NCBI RefSeq assembly: GCF_004011865.1
Contig: NZ_RKLP01000010.1
Location: forward strand, 62,001 to 126,000
Reading direction: 5' to 3'
DNA from: Prescottella agglutinans
Lineage (GTDB): Bacteria > Actinomycetota > Actinomycetes > Mycobacteriales > Mycobacteriaceae
Length of the DNA stretch: 64,000 nt
The translations under genes and the position numbers were made by a program. This document shows, one piece after another, positions 254 through 14,243 of this stretch. The notes beneath the pieces were generated by a model. That model saw only the letters and a list, made by a program, of their open reading frames with translations. It was not told where the DNA came from and ran no database searches. Numbering within the stretch: the first letter of the stretch is position 1; each line of letters begins with the position of its first letter.

Positions 254-688
254 ATGCCCACACGCACTGCGCGCACCGCTTGGAACGGAACACTCGAAAA
301 GGGTTCGGGCCAGGTGGAACTCACCAGTTCGGGAGTCGGGACGTTCGAGGTCTCCTTCCCGAAGCGGGCCGCCGACGAGGCCGGCGGGACGACCAGTCCC
401 GAGGAATTGGTCGCGGCGGCACACTCGGCCTGCTACGCCATGCAGTTGTCGGCGCTGATCGGGGAGGCGGGCGGCACCCCGCAGAGCCTGGACATCCGCG
501 CCGACGTCTCGCTGGGGCCCGACGACCCGGGATTCAAGCTCACCGGTATCAAGCTCACGGTCCGTGGAGAGGTGGACGGCCTGGACGCTGCGGGGTTCGC
601 CCGAGTCGCCCAGGCCGCCAAGGAGTCCTGCCCGGTGAGCAAGGCCCTCACCGGCGTCGAGATCACGCTCGACGCCGCGCTCGAGTAG
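254..688 (+). CDS. OsmC/Ohr family peroxiredoxin
   Basis: A 144-residue protein of the OsmC family, thiol peroxidases that reduce organic hydroperoxides in the cytoplasm. Both redox cysteines are visible in their usual settings: the first in AHSACYAMQLS on the central helix and the second in ESCPVSKAL near the C-terminus. The ATG at 254 is preferred over upstream in-frame starts because it follows GAGAGGATCTGC and gives the normal N-terminus MPTRTARTAWNG. No regulator of the OhrR type is adjacent. The subfamily (OsmC rather than Ohr) is inferred from length and the SPEELVAAAHSAC motif. Confidence 0.9.
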   Translation: MPTRTARTAWNGTLEKGSGQVELTSSGVGTFEVSFPKRAADEAGGTTSPEELVAAAHSACYAMQLSALIGEAGGTPQSLDIRADVSLGPDDPGFKLTGIKLTVRGEVDGLDAAGFARVAQAAKESCPVSKALTGVEITLDAALE

Positions 689-738
689 TCACCTTGTCGT
701 GAGTGCTCGAACGTGCTGGGGCGGAGGCTGTTCCGTCT

Positions 739-1071
739 TCAGGCGCGTTCGAGCCTCGCCCGTACCTGTTCCATCTTCGCGCGCAGTTCGTCCTGGCTGA
801 CGATGCCGCGATCGAGGAAGGTGTGCGCCGTGGTGATCGCGGACCGTGAATGGACGGGGAACTGGCTGTAGACGGTCTCGCCGAGTTCGTCCTCGGTGTG
901 CCGGCGTTCGAGGTTGTCCCACGATCCGCGCCACGACAGGCACTCGCACGTGGCCTGCATCGCGGACTCCCACGGATCCGGCTTGCGGTCGGTGTCGTCG
1001 AGGTCCCCGGCGCGTTCGCTCCCGCGTTGCAGGGTGCGGAGAATGACTTCGTAGCCCTGTGTGGTCGTCAC
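739..1071 (-). CDS. P15K/NHase-activator-like protein (NHase beta N-terminal fold)
   Basis: A 110-residue protein, last of the cobalt-enzyme gene run. It is a shortened paralogue of the beta-like subunit at 2048-2482: both carry TCECL-WRG-W and a C-terminal helix ending in ELRAKMEQVRARLE or a close variant. In Thiobacillus thiocyanate hydrolase the gene after scnC encodes P15K, a beta-like metallochaperone needed for cobalt insertion, so position and fold suggest the same role here. The GTG start overlaps the gamma stop (GTGA), implying translational coupling. The Cys-Glu-Cys motif is a possible metal ligand set. Chaperone function is inferred. Confidence 0.7.
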   Translation of the reverse strand: MTTTQGYEVILRTLQRGSERAGDLDDTDRKPDPWESAMQATCECLSWRGSWDNLERRHTEDELGETVYSQFPVHSRSAITTAHTFLDRGIVSQDELRAKMEQVRARLERA

Positions 1072-1742
1072 TTGCCACCTCCGGCCGACGGTGCCTGCGA
1101 TGCGTCCCAGTCCGCCGAGGGGAGCGCCACGCCGATCATGGTGTCGCGGGTGACGATCTTCTCGAGTTGCTCCTCGGTCCATCCCTCGGTGCCCTCGGGG
1201 CGCATCGGCATGACCATGAACCGTGACTTCTGGTTCGAATCGTGCACCCGCACTTCCACATCGGACGGAAAGTGCAGGCCGAACTCGGCGAGGACCTCGC
1301 GGGGCCGGCGGACCATCCGCCGCCGGTAGTTCGGCGTCCGGTACCAGTCCGGCGACATGCCGAGGACGGGCCGCGGGTAGCACGAGCACAGCGTGCACAC
1401 GATCACGTTGTGGACCTCGGGGGTGTTCTCGAGAACGTAGAAGAAGGTGTAGTCGCTGGGGGTGCCGGTGCCCGTCGGGTCGGTCCAGTCGATGCCCACC
1501 TCCTTGCTCGACTCGGTGCCGTTCTCGAGCAGCCGCTTCTTGAACTCGGGGTCGGTCCAGGCCTTGGCGACCATCTTCGAGCCGCCCGACGGCCCGATGG
1601 ACTCGGCCCATTCGGAGAAGCGGCGGTGGTCCTCGGCCGAGAAGAGACCCTTCTCGATCGCGAGCTCCCGCAGCGCGAGTTCGAGCACCTCGAACTCACT
1701 GATCTCCTCGGAAGCCTGGATGGGGGCGTGTGGATCGCTCAC
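1068..1742 (-). CDS. Cobalt-type nitrile hydratase alpha / thiocyanate hydrolase gamma subunit
   Basis: A 224-residue catalytic subunit. The metal-binding loop VCTLCSCYPRPVLG is present. In this family the three Cys, two of them post-translationally oxidised to sulfinic/sulfenic acid, bind a low-spin metal, and Thr after the first Cys marks the cobalt type. Other family hallmarks are VLENTPEVHNVIV just before the loop and a C-terminal GTEGWTEEQLEKIVTRDTMIG. The reaction is hydration of a nitrile, or of thiocyanate to carbonyl sulfide and ammonia. Because the beta partner is split into two genes (1752-2482), the thiocyanate hydrolase or toyocamycin-hydratase type is favoured over ordinary two-subunit nitrile hydratase. 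Substrate cannot be decided from sequence alone. GTG start. Confidence 0.88.
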   Translation of the reverse strand: MSDPHAPIQASEEISEFEVLELALRELAIEKGLFSAEDHRRFSEWAESIGPSGGSKMVAKAWTDPEFKKRLLENGTESSKEVGIDWTDPTGTGTPSDYTFFYVLENTPEVHNVIVCTLCSCYPRPVLGMSPDWYRTPNYRRRMVRRPREVLAEFGLHFPSDVEVRVHDSNQKSRFMVMPMRPEGTEGWTEEQLEKIVTRDTMIGVALPSADWDASQAPSAGGGK

Positions 1743-1751
1743 TTCTCCTCC

Positions 1752-2048
1752 TCACTCGTTCTTCCCGGCGGCCCGGAGCCAGCCTTCCGCGCACTCGGTC
1801 TCGAGCGTGTCGATGTCGTATCCCGTGTAGCGCGGCCACAGATCGGTCTGCTTGAAGCGGACGACGTAGAACGGTTCCTTGCGCCCGGTCTCCAGCTTGT
1901 CGAACGCCTCGTCCTCGGGGATCACCCACTCGGGGCGGTGTTCGACGACCACGCCCTCTTGATTGCGTACGAAAGCCTGTGTGCGGGTGTGGAAAATGCT
2001 CGTCTGATCCTTCACGACCACCCGGTCGCCGACCTTGAACTTGGGCAT
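1752..2048 (-). CDS. NHase beta C-terminal-domain / thiocyanate hydrolase alpha-type subunit
   Basis: A 98-residue protein corresponding to the C-terminal SH3-like barrel of nitrile hydratase beta. It starts MPKFKVGDRVVVKD and contains FYVVRFKQTDLW, the typical beta-barrel segment that packs on the catalytic subunit. In thiocyanate hydrolase this half is a separate alpha chain of about 126 residues; here it is shorter. Its ATG overlaps the stop codon of the preceding beta-like gene by one base, and it ends 9 bases before the gamma start, so the three structural subunits are tightly co-translated. Structural role by family; no catalytic residue expected. Confidence 0.8.
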   Translation of the reverse strand: MPKFKVGDRVVVKDQTSIFHTRTQAFVRNQEGVVVEHRPEWVIPEDEAFDKLETGRKEPFYVVRFKQTDLWPRYTGYDIDTLETECAEGWLRAAGKNE

Positions 2049-2482
2049 CACTTCCTCGCCTCCTCGAGACGGGCCCGCACCTCGTCGATCTTGTCGCACA
2101 GTTCGTCGAGCGGGATGAGGCCCTTGTCGACCATCACCTTGGCGGCCACGGTGATCCACCGCGCGTAGTAGGGGTAGCCGAAGTACTGTGTCTCGCCCAG
2201 GTCCACTTCGGCACGACGGCGCATCTCCGAGTTCCACGCGCCTCGCCAGCCGAGGCACTCGCACGTGACGTACGTGTTCATCTCCCAGGCCTCCTCCTCC
2301 TTCTCGAGGTAGGGGACCGAGAGCGCCGGTTGACCGCCGACGTCGTGCAGGACGTGCCGCAGGACGTCGTACTGTGCGTTGGTGATCGTGTAGGGCGAAT
2401 CCTGGGCGTCGTGTTCGGCGGGGGTGATCTTGGCCAGACCGTCGGTGAGGGTCTGGAATCGAGCCTGATTTGCGGTGGTCAT
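2048..2482 (-). CDS. NHase beta N-terminal-domain / thiocyanate hydrolase beta-type subunit
   Basis: A 144-residue helical protein matching the N-terminal half of nitrile hydratase beta, the separate beta chain in thiocyanate hydrolase (about 157 residues). It contains WEMNTYVTCECLGWRGAWN, then a C-terminal helix LDELCDKIDEVRARLEEA. Gene order beta-alpha-gamma-P15K equals the scnB-scnA-scnC-P15K order known from Thiobacillus thioparus. It lies 63 bases after cbtA, same strand, so it is probably read from the same message as the cobalt importer. ATG follows AAGGGAGACCTCC. The paralogy to the protein at 739-1071 is visible by eye. Confidence 0.78.
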   Translation of the reverse strand: MTTANQARFQTLTDGLAKITPAEHDAQDSPYTITNAQYDVLRHVLHDVGGQPALSVPYLEKEEEAWEMNTYVTCECLGWRGAWNSEMRRRAEVDLGETQYFGYPYYARWITVAAKVMVDKGLIPLDELCDKIDEVRARLEEARK

Positions 2483-2545
2483 GGAGGTCTCCCTTCCATG
2501 GGGTTCGGTGATTCCTGGTGTTCCGAATCCTCGCCAGTGCCCTTC

Positions 2546-3382
2546 CTACGATCGCGCGGTTCCGGTCGTCTGCGCCCGACCCTGTGCGTCGAGAGAGGCT
2601 GTCGTCCTCGGCGACTCGCCTCGTCGGGACCGCTCGGTGAGGAAGGCGAAGACGAGGCCGAGGCAGAGCCACAGGGTCGCCTGGGTTGCCATGGACGAGA
2701 TCCGGAACTGCCACAGCAGCGTGGCCGGGAAGTCTTCCCCCACCTCGTTCACGGTCGGCAGCAACAGGTAGCCGGCGGTGACGATCGCGACGAACGTGAC
2801 GACCGATGCGATTACCCGAACCGTCCAATAGTGCTGCGAGGCAAGTAACTTCGACACGTAGACGGCGGCAGCGACGGCGGCGAGCCCGAGGACCAGCGCG
2901 GCCAGCCAGTACCAGGTGCGCTGATCGATGGTGTCCGGGTCTCCAACCGCGGGCGGATTGGCCGGGTACTTGAAGAACGGTACGGCCTCGACGGCCAGCC
3001 ACCCCGCGCCGGCCAACCCCAGCGCCAGCAGCGGACCCGACATGGCCGTGTGTCGGCGTGCGTAGTGCGCCACGACGCCGAATATCGCGCCGAGGGCGAC
3101 GCCGGCCAGCGTCGTCGCCAGGATCAGGCCGGCCCGCTGCCCGTCCCGTGAGACCAGGGGTTCGTCGCTGTCGGAGTGGGAGTGGCCGGCCGTCGCGTTC
3201 GGGCCCGGGTGCTCGTGCGCGCCCGTGGCGTCGCTCGCCGGAGCCGATTCCTCGATCGCGATGGCCGCCGCGACGTGCGGTTCCCCGAGAGCGAAGGCGA
3301 CCGCGCCGGTCAGGAGTCCGGCGATCAGCCCGGCGAGGATGCCCCGCAGCAGCAGATTCTTCAGCGAACCGGTCAGTGGCAC
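2546..3382 (-). CDS. cbtA: Cobalt transporter subunit CbtA, copy 1
   Basis: A 278-residue membrane protein with several hydrophobic helices. The first, LLLRGILAGLIAGLLTGAVAFALGEPHVAAAIAIEE, is the CbtA signature, followed by a His-rich loop (HEHPGPNATAGHSHSD) that could bind metal. The family conserves PFFKYPANPPAVGDPDTI and GEDFPATLLWQFR, both present. CbtA works with CbtB in predicted cobalt uptake. The GTG start at 3382 overlaps the end of cbtB by 10 bases; the second copy (10255-11076) shows the same 10-base overlap, which supports this start. It lies directly upstream of the cobalt-dependent hydratase genes. Confidence 0.9.
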   Translation of the reverse strand: MPLTGSLKNLLLRGILAGLIAGLLTGAVAFALGEPHVAAAIAIEESAPASDATGAHEHPGPNATAGHSHSDSDEPLVSRDGQRAGLILATTLAGVALGAIFGVVAHYARRHTAMSGPLLALGLAGAGWLAVEAVPFFKYPANPPAVGDPDTIDQRTWYWLAALVLGLAAVAAAVYVSKLLASQHYWTVRVIASVVTFVAIVTAGYLLLPTVNEVGEDFPATLLWQFRISSMATQATLWLCLGLVFAFLTERSRRGESPRTTASLDAQGRAQTTGTARS

Positions 3383-3567
3383 GGGAGCCCCAGCAGGTGT
3401 CGGCCGTCGTGCATCAGTTCGTGCATGTACATCCCGGTGCGGGAGACGGCGCCCTGGTCGAAGCCGACGATGTAGAGCGTCAGCAGGGCGAGGAGAACCA
3501 CTCCGACCGCGGCGAGGGCAATTCCGAGTGATTCGATTGCCCGATTCGGGCTGTGGGCGAGAGTCAT
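3373..3567 (-). CDS. cbtB: Cobalt transporter subunit CbtB, copy 1
   Basis: A 64-residue protein with one membrane helix (GIALAAVGVVLLALLTLYIVGFDQG) and the CbtB C-terminus MYMHELMHDGRHLLGLPCH. Its His and Cys residues (HELMHDGRH, PCH) form the likely metal site. It is the small partner of CbtA in predicted cobalt import. The ATG follows an excellent AGGAGGACCCC site. It is the first gene of the run cbtB-cbtA-hydratase subunits. Upstream I find a palindrome (3778-3796) but no convincing cobalamin riboswitch, unlike copy 2. Confidence 0.9.
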   Translation of the reverse strand: MTLAHSPNRAIESLGIALAAVGVVLLALLTLYIVGFDQGAVSRTGMYMHELMHDGRHLLGLPCH

Positions 3568-3777
3568 GGGGTCCTCCTGGAGATTCGTCCCGGCATGGCC
3601 GGTCCGGAGGGCGCCGACTGACGGCACAGGGCGAGTCGGGGCCGGACTCGCGCGGCCGGACGGACGTCGGGGCGGCGAACAGCCATGGTCTGCGGTCCGA
3701 ACGCTGTGGACTGGCCGACCCCTCGTCGATCGGAACGCACATCCGACGCTACGCGGCGGGTTTCCTCGAATCCCGCG

Positions 3778-3796
3778 GTTGTGTACTTCACACAAC
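3778..3796 (-). promoter_or_regulatory. Palindrome upstream of cbtB copy 1, candidate operator
   Basis: Arms GTTGTGT and ACACAAC are perfectly complementary around ACTTC. The site lies about 210 bases before cbtB and between it and the DUF4352 gene. The form suits a GntR- or CRP-like dimer, but spacing does not match the CRP consensus exactly. No bound factor can be named. Confidence 0.35.
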
Positions 3797-3869
3797 TGCG
3801 AACGCGCCCGGGGGGTTCGGCAACCCCTCGATGCCGAACCCCACGGGCGCAACCATCCCGGACTCGCCG

Positions 3870-4484
3870 CTACTGCAGCAGGATCGACTCGCCGCCGGAG
3901 AACACGGAGTCGTGAACCTCGAGGACCGCGGGAACGGTGCCCGGGGGCACGTCGAAGACGATGGTGGCCTCGACGGAGTTGCCGGGATTGATCTGTTCGA
4001 ACGCAACGCCCTGATCGAGTGTGATCGTGGCCATGTCGTCCACCGAGTGCTGGCGGTCCTGTGCGTCCACGAGCTTCTGTGCGGACGTCGTGAAGCTCTG
4101 TGCGCGATCCCCGATGTTGCGCACGGTCATGCGGACGAGGACGAACTGCCCCTGCGCCTTCTCGGTGAGGTACTCGTTGACACCGACGCTCGGAACCCCG
4201 GCCTCGACGCCGTTCACGACGAACTCGAACTTGCCGTCGCGGACCGGGGTGCCGATCCGGGCGTCCACGGGGGCCTCGGCGGCGCCGGTGGCTGCACCGG
4301 CCGCTCGGGCGGCGTCCGACGGCTTGTCGCCCGACCCGCCGCTGACGGCAGTGATCGCGATGATCGCGACGATCACGGCGCCGAGCCCGGTGAGGATCTT
4401 GTGGCGGGCGAACCAGCTCTTCTGGGCCGGCGGCTGGGGCTGGGGCTGGGGCTGCGGGGGCGCGGGCTGCTGGGGAGTGCTCAC
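3870..4484 (-). CDS. DUF4352-type membrane-anchored protein
   Basis: A 204-residue protein with a Pro/Gln-rich cytoplasmic start (repeated QPQP), one membrane helix (ILTGLGAVIVAIIAITAV), and an extracytoplasmic immunoglobulin-like domain. The domain carries typical DUF4352 features: FEFVVNGVEAG, GQFVLVRMTVRNIGDRAQSF, and IVFDVPPGT. GTG start at 4484 follows AAGGAA. Function of such domains is unknown; they are often found in actinobacterial surface lipoproteins and telomere-binding-protein-like annotations without experimental basis. It is divergent from the sensor kinase at 4703. Confidence 0.75.
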   Translation of the reverse strand: MSTPQQPAPPQPQPQPQPPAQKSWFARHKILTGLGAVIVAIIAITAVSGGSGDKPSDAARAAGAATGAAEAPVDARIGTPVRDGKFEFVVNGVEAGVPSVGVNEYLTEKAQGQFVLVRMTVRNIGDRAQSFTTSAQKLVDAQDRQHSVDDMATITLDQGVAFEQINPGNSVEATIVFDVPPGTVPAVLEVHDSVFSGGESILLQ

Positions 4485-4702
4485 GGACAGTTCCTTTCGA
4501 CGTCGACGACGCGGCCGGTGGTGTGGCCGAGTCGGGCTCTGCGACAAGCACACCGCGCGTGAGGGCTCGGCGTCTTCCTCCAGAAGTCGGACGCCCCTCC
4601 TCATTTCGGACGGTTTTCGCCGCGCCGATCGTGCAGTCGGGTACCGTCGCCCGACGTTCGGGGGATGTCGGGCTGTCGGCGCCCGTGCGTACGGTTCTGT
4701 CC

Positions 4703-5914
4703 GTGAAATCCGAGACTGCCGGCCGGATCCGGCGCCGTCTGTGGACGGTCGGCGCCGTCACGCTCAGCATCGTGTGCTCGCTGACTACGTTGGGCCTCGC
4801 GTCCAGCTCCGGGAACACGCCGGGCTGGAACCACGGGATCGGGTTCGTCCTCGCGTTGGTGGCGGCCGCCGCGCTGACGCGGCGGCATCAGTATCCGTGG
4901 CAGGTCCTAGGCATCTGTCTTGCCGCCCCGCTGGTGTTCGAGACGGACGCGACGGCGGCGCTCATCGCGCTGTTCGCGGTCATCCGGGTCGCGCGGGGGT
5001 TCCAATTAGCGGGCGCTGCGCTGGCGGTGTTCGTGGTGTGCGGGGTCTCGCTCACCTACGACGCGCACCGGTTGCGGGAGGACTCGGTCCTCACGATGTC
5101 GACCGAAAATCCCGAGACAGGCGTGGTGGAACAGTACGACGTGGCGCTGTGGATCCCGTGGCTCGTCGCGGCGGTCCTGGTGGGGCTGGTCCTGGTGCTC
5201 GCGCTGTGGGCACGCACCCGGGGCCAGCTCGCCCTGGCCGAGCAGAGCCGTGACGAGGCCACCGAAGAGACGGACGCGATCCGCGACGAGATGATCCGGG
5301 CGGAGGAGCGCACCCGGATCGCCCGCGACATGCACGACACGCTGGCCGCGAGTCTCAGCCGGATCTCGTTGTTCGCGGGCGCACTGCAGGTCAACGCAGC
5401 CGAGTCGCCGGAGAAGGTCGCGAACTCGGCGGCGCAGATCCGGGCGACGGCGCACGAGGCGCTCGACGACCTCAAGGGCATCGTCGGGGTGCTGCGCGGC
5501 ACCGCCGGCCCGCGGGAACGCGTCGGACACCAGGGCATCGACGCGGTGCCCGGGATCGTGCAGGCGGCCCGGGCGGCCGGCATGCACTGCGCGCTCAGCA
5601 CCGACCTCGCACCGGGAGACGTCGGCATGCTGGCGGGACACGTCTGCTATCGCGTGGTGCAGGAGGCGCTCACCAACGCGCAGAAGTACGCGAGTGACCA
5701 GGTGGTGGCGATCTCGGTCGAGGGTGCGCCGGAAAGTGGCATTCGTATCTCGATACGTAACCTGTTGAGCACCAGGCCCTCTCAGATCGGAGTCGGATCC
5801 CGGACCGGGCTGCGTGGGCTCCACGAACAGGTCCGGGACATCGGTGGGAAGTTCGAAGCCGGACACCTCGACTCGGAGTTCGTCGTGAACTGCTGGGTTC
5901 CCTGGTCCGGCTGA
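4703..5914 (+). CDS. NarL-type sensor histidine kinase
   Basis: A membrane histidine kinase of 403 residues. About six hydrophobic segments occupy the first 190 residues, with an extracytoplasmic loop DAHRLREDSVLTMSTEN before the last. The HisKA_3 dimerisation domain holds the phosphorylated His near residue 211 in RTRIARDMHDTLAASL. The ATPase N box is VVQEALTNAQKYA and the G box region is GVGSRTGLRGLHEQV. It is followed after 42 bases by its response regulator. The GTG start at 4703 is chosen because it precedes the first membrane segment closely; in-frame starts further up are possible. Signal unknown. Confidence 0.88.
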   Translation: MKSETAGRIRRRLWTVGAVTLSIVCSLTTLGLASSSGNTPGWNHGIGFVLALVAAAALTRRHQYPWQVLGICLAAPLVFETDATAALIALFAVIRVARGFQLAGAALAVFVVCGVSLTYDAHRLREDSVLTMSTENPETGVVEQYDVALWIPWLVAAVLVGLVLVLALWARTRGQLALAEQSRDEATEETDAIRDEMIRAEERTRIARDMHDTLAASLSRISLFAGALQVNAAESPEKVANSAAQIRATAHEALDDLKGIVGVLRGTAGPRERVGHQGIDAVPGIVQAARAAGMHCALSTDLAPGDVGMLAGHVCYRVVQEALTNAQKYASDQVVAISVEGAPESGIRISIRNLLSTRPSQIGVGSRTGLRGLHEQVRDIGGKFEAGHLDSEFVVNCWVPWSG

Positions 5915-5956
5915 TCTGCCGGATTTGTCGGTGGCGGAGCATATTCTGGCCGCACT

Positions 5957-6607
5957 ATGACAGATGCCGGACCGATAACCGTTCTGATCGTCGACGACGA
6001 CCCGTTCGTGCGGCGAGGCGTCGCCGACATCTTCCGGGCCGCCCCGGACATCCTGGTCGTGGGGGACGCGAGTGACGGCGACGAGGTCGTCGCGGCCGTC
6101 CGGACCTTCCGCCCGCACGTCGTGCTGATGGATCTCAAGATGAAGCGGGTCGGCGGGCTCGAGGCGACGCGGATGCTGATGGGGCTGTCGAATCCTCCCA
6201 AGGTCGTGGCGATGACGTCGATGGACGTCGACGACCTCGTCGTCAAGTCCGTCGCGGCCGGAGCCCACAGCTTCCTCAGCAAGGACGAACCCCCGCACAC
6301 GTTCCATCAGTCGGTCCGCGTGGTTGCGGCCGGGAACACGTTGTTCAGCCCGGAGTCGTTGCGCCGCATCGTTGCTGCGGGCGGTGCGCTCCGCGAGAAC
6401 GGCCCGGACCTGAGTCGCCTCACCGACCGTGAGCGAGACGTTCTCGCGGTGCTCGCCGAGGGGGAGTCCAACGCCGACATCGGCAAGCGGCTGTACATGA
6501 GCGAGACGACGGTCAAGTCGCACGTGTCGGCGATCCTCGGCAAGCTCGGCGCGCGCAATCGCGTCGAGGCCGCCCTGAGCGCGTTCCGGGCCGGCCTCGT
6601 CGCCTGA
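5957..6607 (+). CDS. NarL/FixJ response regulator
   Basis: A 216-residue regulator. The receiver domain has acidic pocket VDDDP near residue 13, phosphoacceptor Asp59 in VVLMDLKM, and Lys in FLSKDEP. The C-terminal LuxR helix-turn-helix starts at LTDRERDVLAVLAEG and includes NADIGKRLYMSETTVKSHVS. It is the partner of the kinase at 4703-5914. The targets are unknown; the next gene on the same strand is a HxlR-type regulator after a gap of about 117 bases. Confidence 0.92.
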   Translation: MTDAGPITVLIVDDDPFVRRGVADIFRAAPDILVVGDASDGDEVVAAVRTFRPHVVLMDLKMKRVGGLEATRMLMGLSNPPKVVAMTSMDVDDLVVKSVAAGAHSFLSKDEPPHTFHQSVRVVAAGNTLFSPESLRRIVAAGGALRENGPDLSRLTDRERDVLAVLAEGESNADIGKRLYMSETTVKSHVSAILGKLGARNRVEAALSAFRAGLVA

Positions 6608-10254: not shown

Positions 10255-11076
10255 CTAGCGGATCGCGCGCCGGCCGGCGCGTTCGGTGAGGAACGCGAAC
10301 GCCAGCCCCAGCGCGAGCCACAGCGCTGCCTGGGTTGCGAGCGACGAGATGCGGAACTGCCACAGCAGGGTGGCGGGGAAGTCCTCGCCCACCTCGTCGA
10401 TCCCGGGCAGCGCGATGTAGCCCACGGCGACCACCACGAGGAACGCCGCGATCTGCCCGATCAGGCGGGCGGACACCAGTTCCTGACTGCGCAGGACCCG
10501 TCCGACGTAGACGGCCGCCGCGACGGAAAGTAGTCCCAGGATCACCGATGCGAGCCACAGCAGGGTTCGCTCGTTGATCGTGTCCGGATCGCCCACCGCC
10601 GGCGGGTTGGCGGGGTACTTGAAGAACGGCACGGCTTCGATTGCGAGCCAACCGCATCCGGCCACCACGATGGCGAGGAGGGGGCCCGCCATCGTGGTGA
10701 ACCGGCGTGCGTAGTGCACGACGACGGCGAAGATCGCTCCCAGCGCCAGGCCGGCGAGCGTCGTCGCGAGGAACAGACCGAACCGCTGCCCGGCGCGGCT
10801 CACGAGGGCGTCGTCGCCGTGTGAGTGCCCCTCGGATTCCTCGGTGGCGGTCGCGTCGTGGTCGTGGGGTGCGGTCTCGGTTTCGCCTGCGTGATGGTCC
10901 GGTTCGGCCGGTGCGGCGGCGGACTCCTCGATCTCGATCGCCGCCTGCACGTGCGGTTCGCCGAGCGTGAACGCGACGACGCCGCCCAGGAGACCGGCGA
11001 TCAGGCCGGCCAGCAGGCCGCGGAGGAGGAGGGTCTCGAGGCTGTCGGTGCTCGTCGTCAGTGTTTTCAATGGCAC
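10255..11076 (-). CDS. cbtA: Cobalt transporter subunit CbtA, copy 2
   Basis: A 273-residue homologue of the CbtA at 2546-3382, with the same first helix (LLLRGLLAGLIAGLLGGVVAFTLGEPHV), a His-rich loop (DHHAGETETAPHDHDA, then GHSHGDD), the PFFKYPANPPAVGDPDTI block and GEDFPATLLWQFRIS. The ATG overlaps cbtB by 10 bases exactly as in copy 1. A cobalamin riboswitch precedes the cbtB-cbtA pair, tying it to B12 status. Predicted cobalt uptake for corrin synthesis. Confidence 0.92.
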   Translation of the reverse strand: MPLKTLTTSTDSLETLLLRGLLAGLIAGLLGGVVAFTLGEPHVQAAIEIEESAAAPAEPDHHAGETETAPHDHDATATEESEGHSHGDDALVSRAGQRFGLFLATTLAGLALGAIFAVVVHYARRFTTMAGPLLAIVVAGCGWLAIEAVPFFKYPANPPAVGDPDTINERTLLWLASVILGLLSVAAAVYVGRVLRSQELVSARLIGQIAAFLVVVAVGYIALPGIDEVGEDFPATLLWQFRISSLATQAALWLALGLAFAFLTERAGRRAIR

Positions 11077-11261
11077 GGCAGACCCAGCAGGTGCCGACCG
11101 TCATGCATCAGTTCGTGCATGTACATGCCACTGCGGGAGATTGCGCCCTGGTCGAATCCGACCAGGTAGAGGGCGAGCATGGCGAGCAGTACGACTGCCG
11201 CGGCGATGAGTGCGACAGCGGCCGAGTCGGCCGACTTGTCGGGTGAATAGGCGATTGCCAT
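11067..11261 (-). CDS. cbtB: Cobalt transporter subunit CbtB, copy 2
   Basis: A 64-residue single-helix protein, nearly identical at its C-terminus (MYMHELMHDGRHLLGLPCH) to the copy at 3373-3567 but diverged in the first 20 residues. The HELMHDGRH and PCH groups are the presumed metal ligands. ATG follows GGAGGCACCG. It is the first gene behind the cobalamin riboswitch at about 11300-11400. Confidence 0.92.
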   Translation of the reverse strand: MAIAYSPDKSADSAAVALIAAAVVLLAMLALYLVGFDQGAISRSGMYMHELMHDGRHLLGLPCH

Positions 11262-11299
11262 CGGTGCCTCCTGGGATTTCGCGTCCCTGTTGGGTTCAT

Positions 11300-11400
11300 G
11301 CGATGGCCGGGTGTCTGGCTCTCGAGGGCGGACCCTCGAACACAGTGGCGCGACCGCTCCGGAATGACACCGGATTACCGTCGGACCATCGCTTCTGTCG
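11300..11400 (-). promoter_or_regulatory. Cobalamin riboswitch
   Basis: On the minus strand the leader of cbtB contains the ordered cobalamin-aptamer elements: GGTGTCATTCCGG, then CGGTCGCGCCACTGT (the conserved GCCACTG core, complement of 11343-11349), a short stem (TCGAGGGTCCGCCCTCGA), and the B12 box AGCCAGACACCCGGCC (complement of 11305-11320). The consensus B12 box is AGCCAGGAGACCGGCC. The spacing between core and B12 box is short, as in compact actinobacterial forms. It ends about 40 bases before the start codon, so it probably controls translation initiation or transcription of cbtBA. Boundaries are approximate. Confidence 0.82.
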
Positions 11401-11405
11401 AGCGA

Positions 11406-11435
11406 ACTTTGACACCCCACAGGTCACGGTGTCAA
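11406..11435 (-). promoter_or_regulatory. Sigma70-like promoter for the cbtB-cbtA copy 2 leader
   Basis: On the minus strand a perfect -35 TTGACA (complement of 11430-11435) is followed after 18 bases by CAAAGT (complement of 11406-11411). A start near 11399 would place the riboswitch at the beginning of the transcript. Prediction from hexamers only. Confidence 0.5.
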
Positions 11436-13516: not shown

Positions 13517-13616
13517 CGAAATTCTCACCCTTCTCCGTGCACCGCTACGGCATTCGTCACAGGAATCTCGGCGATCCGGCTGATACAGCCGGTGGTCGAG
13601 GGTGCACAATTGCCCC

Positions 13617-14243
13617 ATGCCCAATTCCAACCCGATCTCCGCTTGGAAAGCCCTCAAGCAGGGTAACGAGCGTTTCGTCAGCGGTACCCCGCTGCATCCG
13701 AGCCAGGGTATTGCCGACCGCGCGAAGTTGGTCGATGCCCAGCATCCGACTGCGGTGATCTTCGGCTGCGGCGACTCCCGGGTCGCCGCCGAGATCATCT
13801 TCGACCAGGGCCTCGGCGACACGTTCGTCGTCCGCACCGCCGGTCACGTGATCGACAGCGCCGTCCTCGGCTCCATCGAGTACGCCGTCGCGGTCCTAGG
13901 CGTCCCGCTCGTCGTCGTGTTCGGTCACGACAACTGCGGTGCGGTCAAGGCCTCGATCGATGCCCTCGACACCGGGGCCATCCCCGCCGGATTCATCCGC
14001 GACGTCGTCGAGCGGGTCTCGCCGTCGATCCTGATGGGTCGCCGTGAGGGTCTGACCACCGTCGATGAGCTCGAGGGACGGCACGTGGTCGAGACGGGTG
14101 CACTGCTGATGCAGCGGTCGCGGATCATCTCCGAGGCCGTCGAGGCCGGCAAGTGCGCCATCGTCGGCGTCACCTACAAGCTGTCCGACGGTGACATCAA
14201 GCTGCAGAGCGTCGTCGGTGACGTCGGCGAAACCGTCGACTGA
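13617..14243 (+). CDS. canB: Beta-class carbonic anhydrase
   Basis: A 208-residue zinc enzyme interconverting carbon dioxide and bicarbonate. The ligands Cys51 (GCGDSR), His104 and Cys107 (FGHDNCGA) are visible, as is the Asp53-Arg55 dyad. It corresponds to Rv3588c (CanB). A strong terminator hairpin follows at 14257. The ATG at 13617 is chosen over a TTG-proximal alternative because it gives the family N-terminus NPISAWKALKQGNERFV. Divergent from mutY. Confidence 0.93.
   Translation: MPNSNPISAWKALKQGNERFVSGTPLHPSQGIADRAKLVDAQHPTAVIFGCGDSRVAAEIIFDQGLGDTFVVRTAGHVIDSAVLGSIEYAVAVLGVPLVVVFGHDNCGAVKASIDALDTGAIPAGFIRDVVERVSPSILMGRREGLTTVDELEGRHVVETGALLMQRSRIISEAVEAGKCAIVGVTYKLSDGDIKLQSVVGDVGETVD

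Follow-up and report, generated by a model that had tools for sequence, protein, structure and literature searches.

How is cobalt supplied to an enzyme whose metal never enters cobalamin (vitamin B12), when B12 riboswitches govern the uptake of cobalt in many bacteria? Enzymes resembling thiocyanate hydrolase (SCNase) are of this kind, and the question is raised by a 64,000-nt stretch of contig NZ_RKLP01000010.1 of Prescottella agglutinans (Prescottella is the Rhodococcus equi group), hereafter the window, in which six genes arranged in the order cbtB, cbtA, beta, alpha, gamma and P15K-like run along the minus strand from position 3567 to 739. A second cbtBA pair, preceded by a cobalamin riboswitch, is located on the same strand at a distance of 7.7 kb (start to start). 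We propose, from sequence comparison, that the six-gene run as a whole quite probably encodes a cobalt SCNase (beta-alpha-gamma) together with a P15K-type activator and a dedicated CbtBA importer that is insulated from B12.

All six reading frames are present and all six products exceed the cut-offs of their Pfam families (CbtB, CbtA, NHase_beta_N, NHase_beta_C, NHase_alpha and, once more, NHase_beta_N). The predicted cobalt transporter subunits are encoded by paired genes, i.e., cbtB (3373..3567; 64 amino acids, Pfam CbtB 53.5 bits against a cut-off of 27) and cbtA (2546..3382; Pfam CbtA 256 bits against 30.7), the latter starting at a GTG codon within cbtB. They are followed by the genes for the predicted SCNase subunits beta (ScnB-like, 2048..2482), alpha (ScnA-like, 1752..2048) and gamma (ScnC-like, 1068..1742), and by the gene for a putative P15K-like activator or cobalt chaperone (739..1071), which carries a CEC motif, is kin to the N-terminal part of beta and scores 34 bits against the NHase_beta_N cut-off of 21.5. 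Adjacent genes overlap by 10 bp (cbtB/cbtA), 1 bp (beta/alpha) and 4 bp (gamma/P15K-like) or leave spacers, of 9 bp for alpha/gamma and of 63 bp for cbtA/beta. These Pfam matches and the gene order are far beyond chance. An original prediction made from the DNA of this region had named the six genes, their order and their place, with a cobalt importer in the same gene run as the hydratase genes, and this description was borne out by the reading frames, the Pfam matches, the common strand and the short spacers; it had overlooked the riboswitch-controlled second cbtBA at 10255-11261. Among the 80 relatives named in this work (the best 80 of at least 378), the order beta-alpha-gamma on one strand was found in all 80, and a P15K-like gene lies 3' of gamma in 77; of the three exceptions, the sequence beyond gamma amounts to just 160 bases in L097 and 262 bases in L118, and to 6.5 kb in L119. 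The P15K-like protein is a candidate activator by its family (NHase_beta_N), by its position and by the comparison with PDB chains, where 2dd4_B (SCNase beta of Thiobacillus thioparus) was the sole match at E ≤ 1. The title of Kataoka et al. 2006 calls P15K an activator.

The gamma product scores 385 bits with the NCBIfam SCNase model TIGR03887, 94 bits above the cut-off of 291.45, and 225.9 bits with the NCBIfam nitrile hydratase (NHase) model TIGR01323, which is under the cut-off of 249.85. When the three subunits were compared with PDB chains, the best match of each was the T. thioparus SCNase: 2dd4_B for beta (NHase_beta_N, E 1.1e-35), 2dd4_A for alpha (NHase_beta_C, E 7.9e-16) and 2dd4_C for gamma (NHase_alpha, E 3.1e-90). 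NHase_beta_N and NHase_beta_C are split over two separate genes, with a separate gamma in addition; the toyocamycin nitrile hydratase (ToyJKL) likewise has three subunits. The loop VCTLCSCY, from which a cobalt enzyme had been predicted, was confirmed at gamma residues 115-122 and supports a cobalt-type active site, the claw C-T-L-C-S-C being residues 116-121. The gamma phylogeny had been named beforehand as the place where an NHase origin would come to light. In the maximum-likelihood tree (105 of the 137 rows used below), 89 SCNase-type chains part from 16 NHase-type chains with 100/100 support, and the window gamma is found on the SCNase side, outside the NHase-type chains.

Two arginines point in the same direction. 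Gamma R124, which follows the claw (CTLCSCYPR), is equivalent to R136 of T. thioparus gamma, and this position is R in 121/121 SCNase-type rows; the 16 NHase-type rows (L138-L152, below the SCNase cut-off, and PDB 4ob1), a class set by score and not checked one by one, have W in 14, I in one and no motif in the aligned piece in one. The 137 rows were counted without the window copies L001, L009, L122, L123 and L136 and without L124-L135, whose loci were already counted. PDB 3vyg is approximately the same chain as T. thioparus gamma but has W at 136, like the NHase 4ob1. The beta residues here that correspond to R90 and R91 of the T. thioparus chain are R88 and R89, and both positions are R in 80/80 relatives; a P. 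putida NHase chain has F at the R90 position and R at the R91 position in one weak alignment. R90 and R136 reportedly determine the choice of thiocyanate, a result said to be that of Yamanaka et al. in 2013. An NHase identity was ruled out by the failed TIGR01323 model, the presence of R instead of W after CTLCSCYP, and the tree position. The enzyme is most likely an SCNase, and on these comparisons it very probably belongs to the SCNase family.

Resemblance to the Thiobacillus enzyme had been part of the original prediction. The three-subunit split was confirmed by the PDB chains, and we take the Thiobacillus SCNase genes to be in the order seen here. ScnABC with P15K of T. thioparus THI115 (2dd4) and the window system have in common the three subunits, the same homology pattern, the CTLCSCYPR loop and the marker arginines, together with a beta-related gene that adjoins gamma in the run here. 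The two differ in that window gamma is 62% identical (128/207 in the aligned part) and beta and alpha are less so (59/124 and 41/89, respectively), and window alpha is shorter by approximately 33 N-terminal residues. The T. thioparus SCNase, the only enzyme in the tree with a tested activity, also lies within a 42-row subclade (100/100) that excludes window gamma, so that tested enzymes do not bracket the substrate of the window's enzyme, and this counts against the assignment. Such divergence, and the fact that no carbonyl sulfide (COS) hydrolase was assignable in the window's genome, would be expected of an SCNase-type hydratase with another natural substrate, such as a small nitrile or a cyano compound, rather than thiocyanate. 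We consider that unlikely, as both SCNase-marking arginines are kept and the equivalog model for SCNase is passed by 94 bits with the NHase model failed; because of the two arginines, the substrate is also less open than the original prediction had stated.

The carbonic anhydrase encoded at 13602-14243 of the window was rejected as a COS hydrolase, its best structure matches being the carbonic anhydrases 2a5v and 1ym3; it matches a carbonic anhydrase that we take to be Rv3588c. The beta-carbonic anhydrase L154 (G000, contig C18) scores 280 bits with Rv1284 versus 135 bits with COS hydrolase, and no COS hydrolase is claimed since it is closer to Rv1284; it is nevertheless a candidate for a step that would follow on COS.

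SCNase had been considered an untypical trait for Rhodococcus, and this view did not hold: 11 of the 14 genus genomes pass the TIGR03887 cut-off, as do 32 of the 397 genomes sampled from the order, and in PMC10098168 the Actinobacteria are well represented in the NHase and SCNase trees. On these grounds SCNase is ordinary for the group.

The two cbtBA pairs differ in their leaders. The second pair consists of cbtB at 11070..11261 and cbtA at 10255..11076 (both minus strand), whose products are 70% and 64% identical to the SCNase-side CbtB and CbtA, respectively (Pfam 253.6 bits for CbtA); no CbtA gene beyond these two was found in the window's genome. Upstream of this pair, at 11255..11423 (minus strand), is a cobalamin riboswitch (RF00174, 33.3 bits against a gathering score of 31.5, core 11288-11405), one of four in the genome. 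The Rfam core stops 26 nt short of the second cbtB start, beside AGGAGG. A clade-specific covariance model, R1, was trained on 14 leaders; it gives the window riboswitch 182 bits, a score that reflects the membership of this riboswitch in the training set. Over 30 sources R1 produced 17 matches of at least 134 bits, each immediately 5' of a riboswitch-type cbtB (14 are the training leaders and three their close kin), and five riboswitch-type leaders of the genus outside the training set match as well (78-187 bits).

No riboswitch was detected before the SCNase-side cbtB, where positions 2400-4000 gave neither an Rfam match (E ≤ 1) nor an R1 match. At the Rfam gathering score, L042-L044, L046 and L084 likewise show no riboswitch in their SCNase-side leaders. 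When 21 SCNase-side cbtB leaders from 19 distinct genomes (the window, L124-L132, L134, L135, L045, L047-L051, L060, L071 and L073, two genomes being represented twice) were searched with R1, a single match under E 0.001 was obtained: a weak one of 34 bits at 6801-6989 of L050 (R. maanshanensis), before a lone SCNase-side cbtB, which is perhaps a decayed riboswitch or relic. The SCNase-side leader of L127 gave 12.6 bits (E 0.7), and the same site, as L156, E 0.07, the sole one of nine such leaders listed in that search. Two observations were made in genome G007. At 10436-10638 of its locus L130, a natural deletion fuses the front of the riboswitch with coding sequence of the B12-type cbtB (match 35 bits); its SCNase-side cbtA matches the family in two pieces only (profile positions 2-40 and 131-238) and may be shortened or broken.

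What the SCNase-side leader does contain is a palindrome, GTTGTG-N7-CACAAC (3778..3796, no strand assigned), which occurs in its exact form only once in the 5.4 Mb genome, and, 26 nt past it on the minus strand, a candidate -10 box TAGCGT (3746..3751), which fits the consensus TANNNT. In eight of nine aligned leaders of the genus the palindrome is kept within one mismatch and is followed approximately 26 nt on by the block GTAGCGTC; the G007 palindrome has two mismatches. The palindrome is absent from the G010 leader, which differs from the others; G010 is also the single case in which the SCNase-side copy is the sole cbtBA. With one mismatch allowed, the genome contains eight further sites, and the backward control gave 20 versus 9, so that near matches mean little; since three sites at up to two mismatches are found within the window versus 1.47 expected, weight is given solely to the exact occurrence and to how well it is conserved. 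From these the palindrome could be an operator. A role as a general SCNase operator was ruled out, as only scattered two-mismatch hits occur outside the genus. No consensus sigma-70 promoter was found in 500-4700 by a scan that is ill-suited to a GC-rich actinobacterium.

Within the genus, the SCNase-side cbtBA accompanies the operon: it is present in 10/10 genomes with the operon (the window, G001-G007, G009 and G010) and in 0/4 without it (G008, G011, G012 and G013), the latter having a single CbtA each, behind a full riboswitch. G012 possesses an SCNase of the other clade with no importer beside it. The riboswitch-type pair is missing from G010 (L132), the only one of the 14 genomes with the SCNase-side cbtBA alone, and G001 has a second copy that is roughly equidistant from the two cbtBA types, with a weaker riboswitch match (78 bits). 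In the CbtA tree, constructed without the duplicates L042, L043, L044, L046 and L084, all ten SCNase-side sequences of the genus fall into a single clade (99/97) apart from the riboswitch copies; the label B12RS in this tree was given to L130 despite its shortened riboswitch, and to L126, L127 and L129 before their confirmation by R1. The CbtA of R. coprophilus (L071), where cbtBA lies right before beta and no riboswitch was found, is placed elsewhere on a long branch. In G002 (L125/L003, a genome 79% complete), beta and the B12-type cbtA are each in two frames, by sequencing error or a real break.

The closeness of importer and enzyme could also be inherited, since the window, several other Prescottella and the groups of R. 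jostii and R. maanshanensis all have a riboswitch-type cbtBA on the same strand, a few kb further upstream. The operon would then have landed near cbtBA, which duplicated, leaving a copy without a special role. We regard such a historical by-product as distinctly unlikely, because the extra copy of the genus is found only with the operon and forms its own CbtA clade, and because an unrelated importer, NicO, is present beside SCNase in other lineages. Of 50 genomes searched for CbtA, only L068, L070 and L079 came out without one, and in each of them a NicO gene sits within 1 kb of the SCNase genes.

Of the 80 loci, 28 have an importer gene no further than 1 kb from SCNase, namely cbtA or cbtB in 20, NicO in 8 (one of these calls, L088, is weak at 2e-6) and both in none. 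By our own estimate, for a handful of such genes per genome and genome sizes of several million bases, the chance rate for an importer this close is well under 1%. The arrangements vary. In R. jostii-type loci, the cbtA of a riboswitch-controlled cbtBA ends 2.7 kb ahead of beta, and a lone cbtB stops about 40 bp short of beta; cbtBA is 3' of P15K in Nonomuraea and Dactylosporangium and 1.4-1.6 kb upstream on the opposite strand in Actinomadura. NicO lies about 190 bp past P15K in three Microtetraspora, two mycobacterial metagenome-assembled genomes (MAGs) and one other actinobacterial MAG, and just before beta in Microbispora. A CbtBA importer dedicated to the enzyme is, from these patterns, probable.

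Several points weigh against a dedicated importer. No importer is found within 1 kb in 52 of the 80 loci, including 15/15 Nocardia and 12/16 mycobacterial loci, so that the link is not a required one; of the 20 cbt loci, only half have cbtA with cbtB and the other ten a lone cbtB, and at 5 kb (39/80 loci) one locus, L104, has both importer types. The MAG L045 has, at 605-3805, a riboswitch heading a compact run cbtB-cbtA-cbtB-beta-alpha-gamma-P15K. The genus counts are not independent trials, since the genomes are kin. The SCNase-side pair is also under the NCBIfam cut-offs, with 49.8 versus 182.9 bits for CbtA (TIGR02458) and 22.1 versus 64.4 bits for CbtB (TIGR02459), models that are labelled hypothetical equivalog, and CbtAB is described as a predicted transporter in PMC2667541. 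The record of L045 is placed under Cyanobacteriota though titled Rhodococcus, which is probably a name mix-up.

The 63-bp gap between cbtA and beta, which could hold a promoter, is a further point on this side: cbtBA and the hydratase genes might be on separate transcripts, with cbtBA serving as a general second cobalt importer, an arrangement compatible with the SCNase assignment. We hold it to be not very likely, as no terminator-like site was detected in 500-4700 (by a scan of a type poorly suited to a GC-rich actinobacterium), no terminator-like or unusual fold was found in the gap (z 0.74), and the R. jostii-type loci have cbtB ending close before beta. We infer a single transcript for the six genes.

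In the preferred reading, i.e., an SCNase with its own importer, Co2+ would be brought in by CbtBA, P15K would help to load cobalt into the CTLCSC claw of gamma, two cysteines of the claw would become oxidised, and the enzyme would convert thiocyanate to COS and ammonia. Because the SCNase-side cbtBA is without the cobalamin riboswitch of its paralogue, the cobalt supply for the enzyme would not be shut off by B12 and could follow its own promoter, perhaps via the conserved palindrome. The enzyme may then get its metal even when B12 is sufficient. Two paralogous importers within 12 kb, one switched by B12 and one not and tied to an enzyme, would constitute a natural experiment on the sharing of a scarce metal. 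It may be, with about even chances, that bacterial users of non-corrin cobalt enzymes keep a dedicated importer freed from the B12 riboswitch, either by cbtBA duplication and riboswitch loss, as in Prescottella and with the possible relic in R. maanshanensis, or by NicO beside the enzyme; if so, the import system, and not only the chaperone, splits cobalt between corrin and non-corrin use. Thiocyanate breakdown would be likely in most of the sampled species of the genus (11/14), which bears on the turnover of thiocyanate and COS.

In Rhodococcus, cobalt NHase operons that carry the NhlF (NiCoT) permease likewise have a metal importer beside a cobalt hydratase; they differ in having a two-subunit NHase of another enzyme clade and a NicO-type importer. 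CbtAB under a B12 riboswitch is the same transporter family, and the second cbtBA of the window is of that kind; the SCNase-side copy differs in that no riboswitch was found before it. Linked cobalt supply for SCNase is not a new idea: PMC5328954 places a gene for a cobalt transporter subunit close to the SCNase genes of Tb. thioparus (DSM 505) and describes another system of cobalt uptake for Tv. (Thioalkalivibrio) thiocyanodenitrificans; CbtA is not named there, and its thiocyanate section has no duplicate importer or riboswitch comparison. Nothing on a B12-insulated duplicate importer, or on CbtA with SCNase, was found in the literature searched, whose coverage leaves most subscription papers outside; the B12-insulated cbtBA duplicate and the importer swap (cbt/NicO) look new.

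Judged by eye, the operon is flanked on the plus strand by an OsmC-like reading frame (212-688) that converges on its end and, upstream, by frames resembling a sensor kinase and a LuxR-type response regulator (4523-6607).

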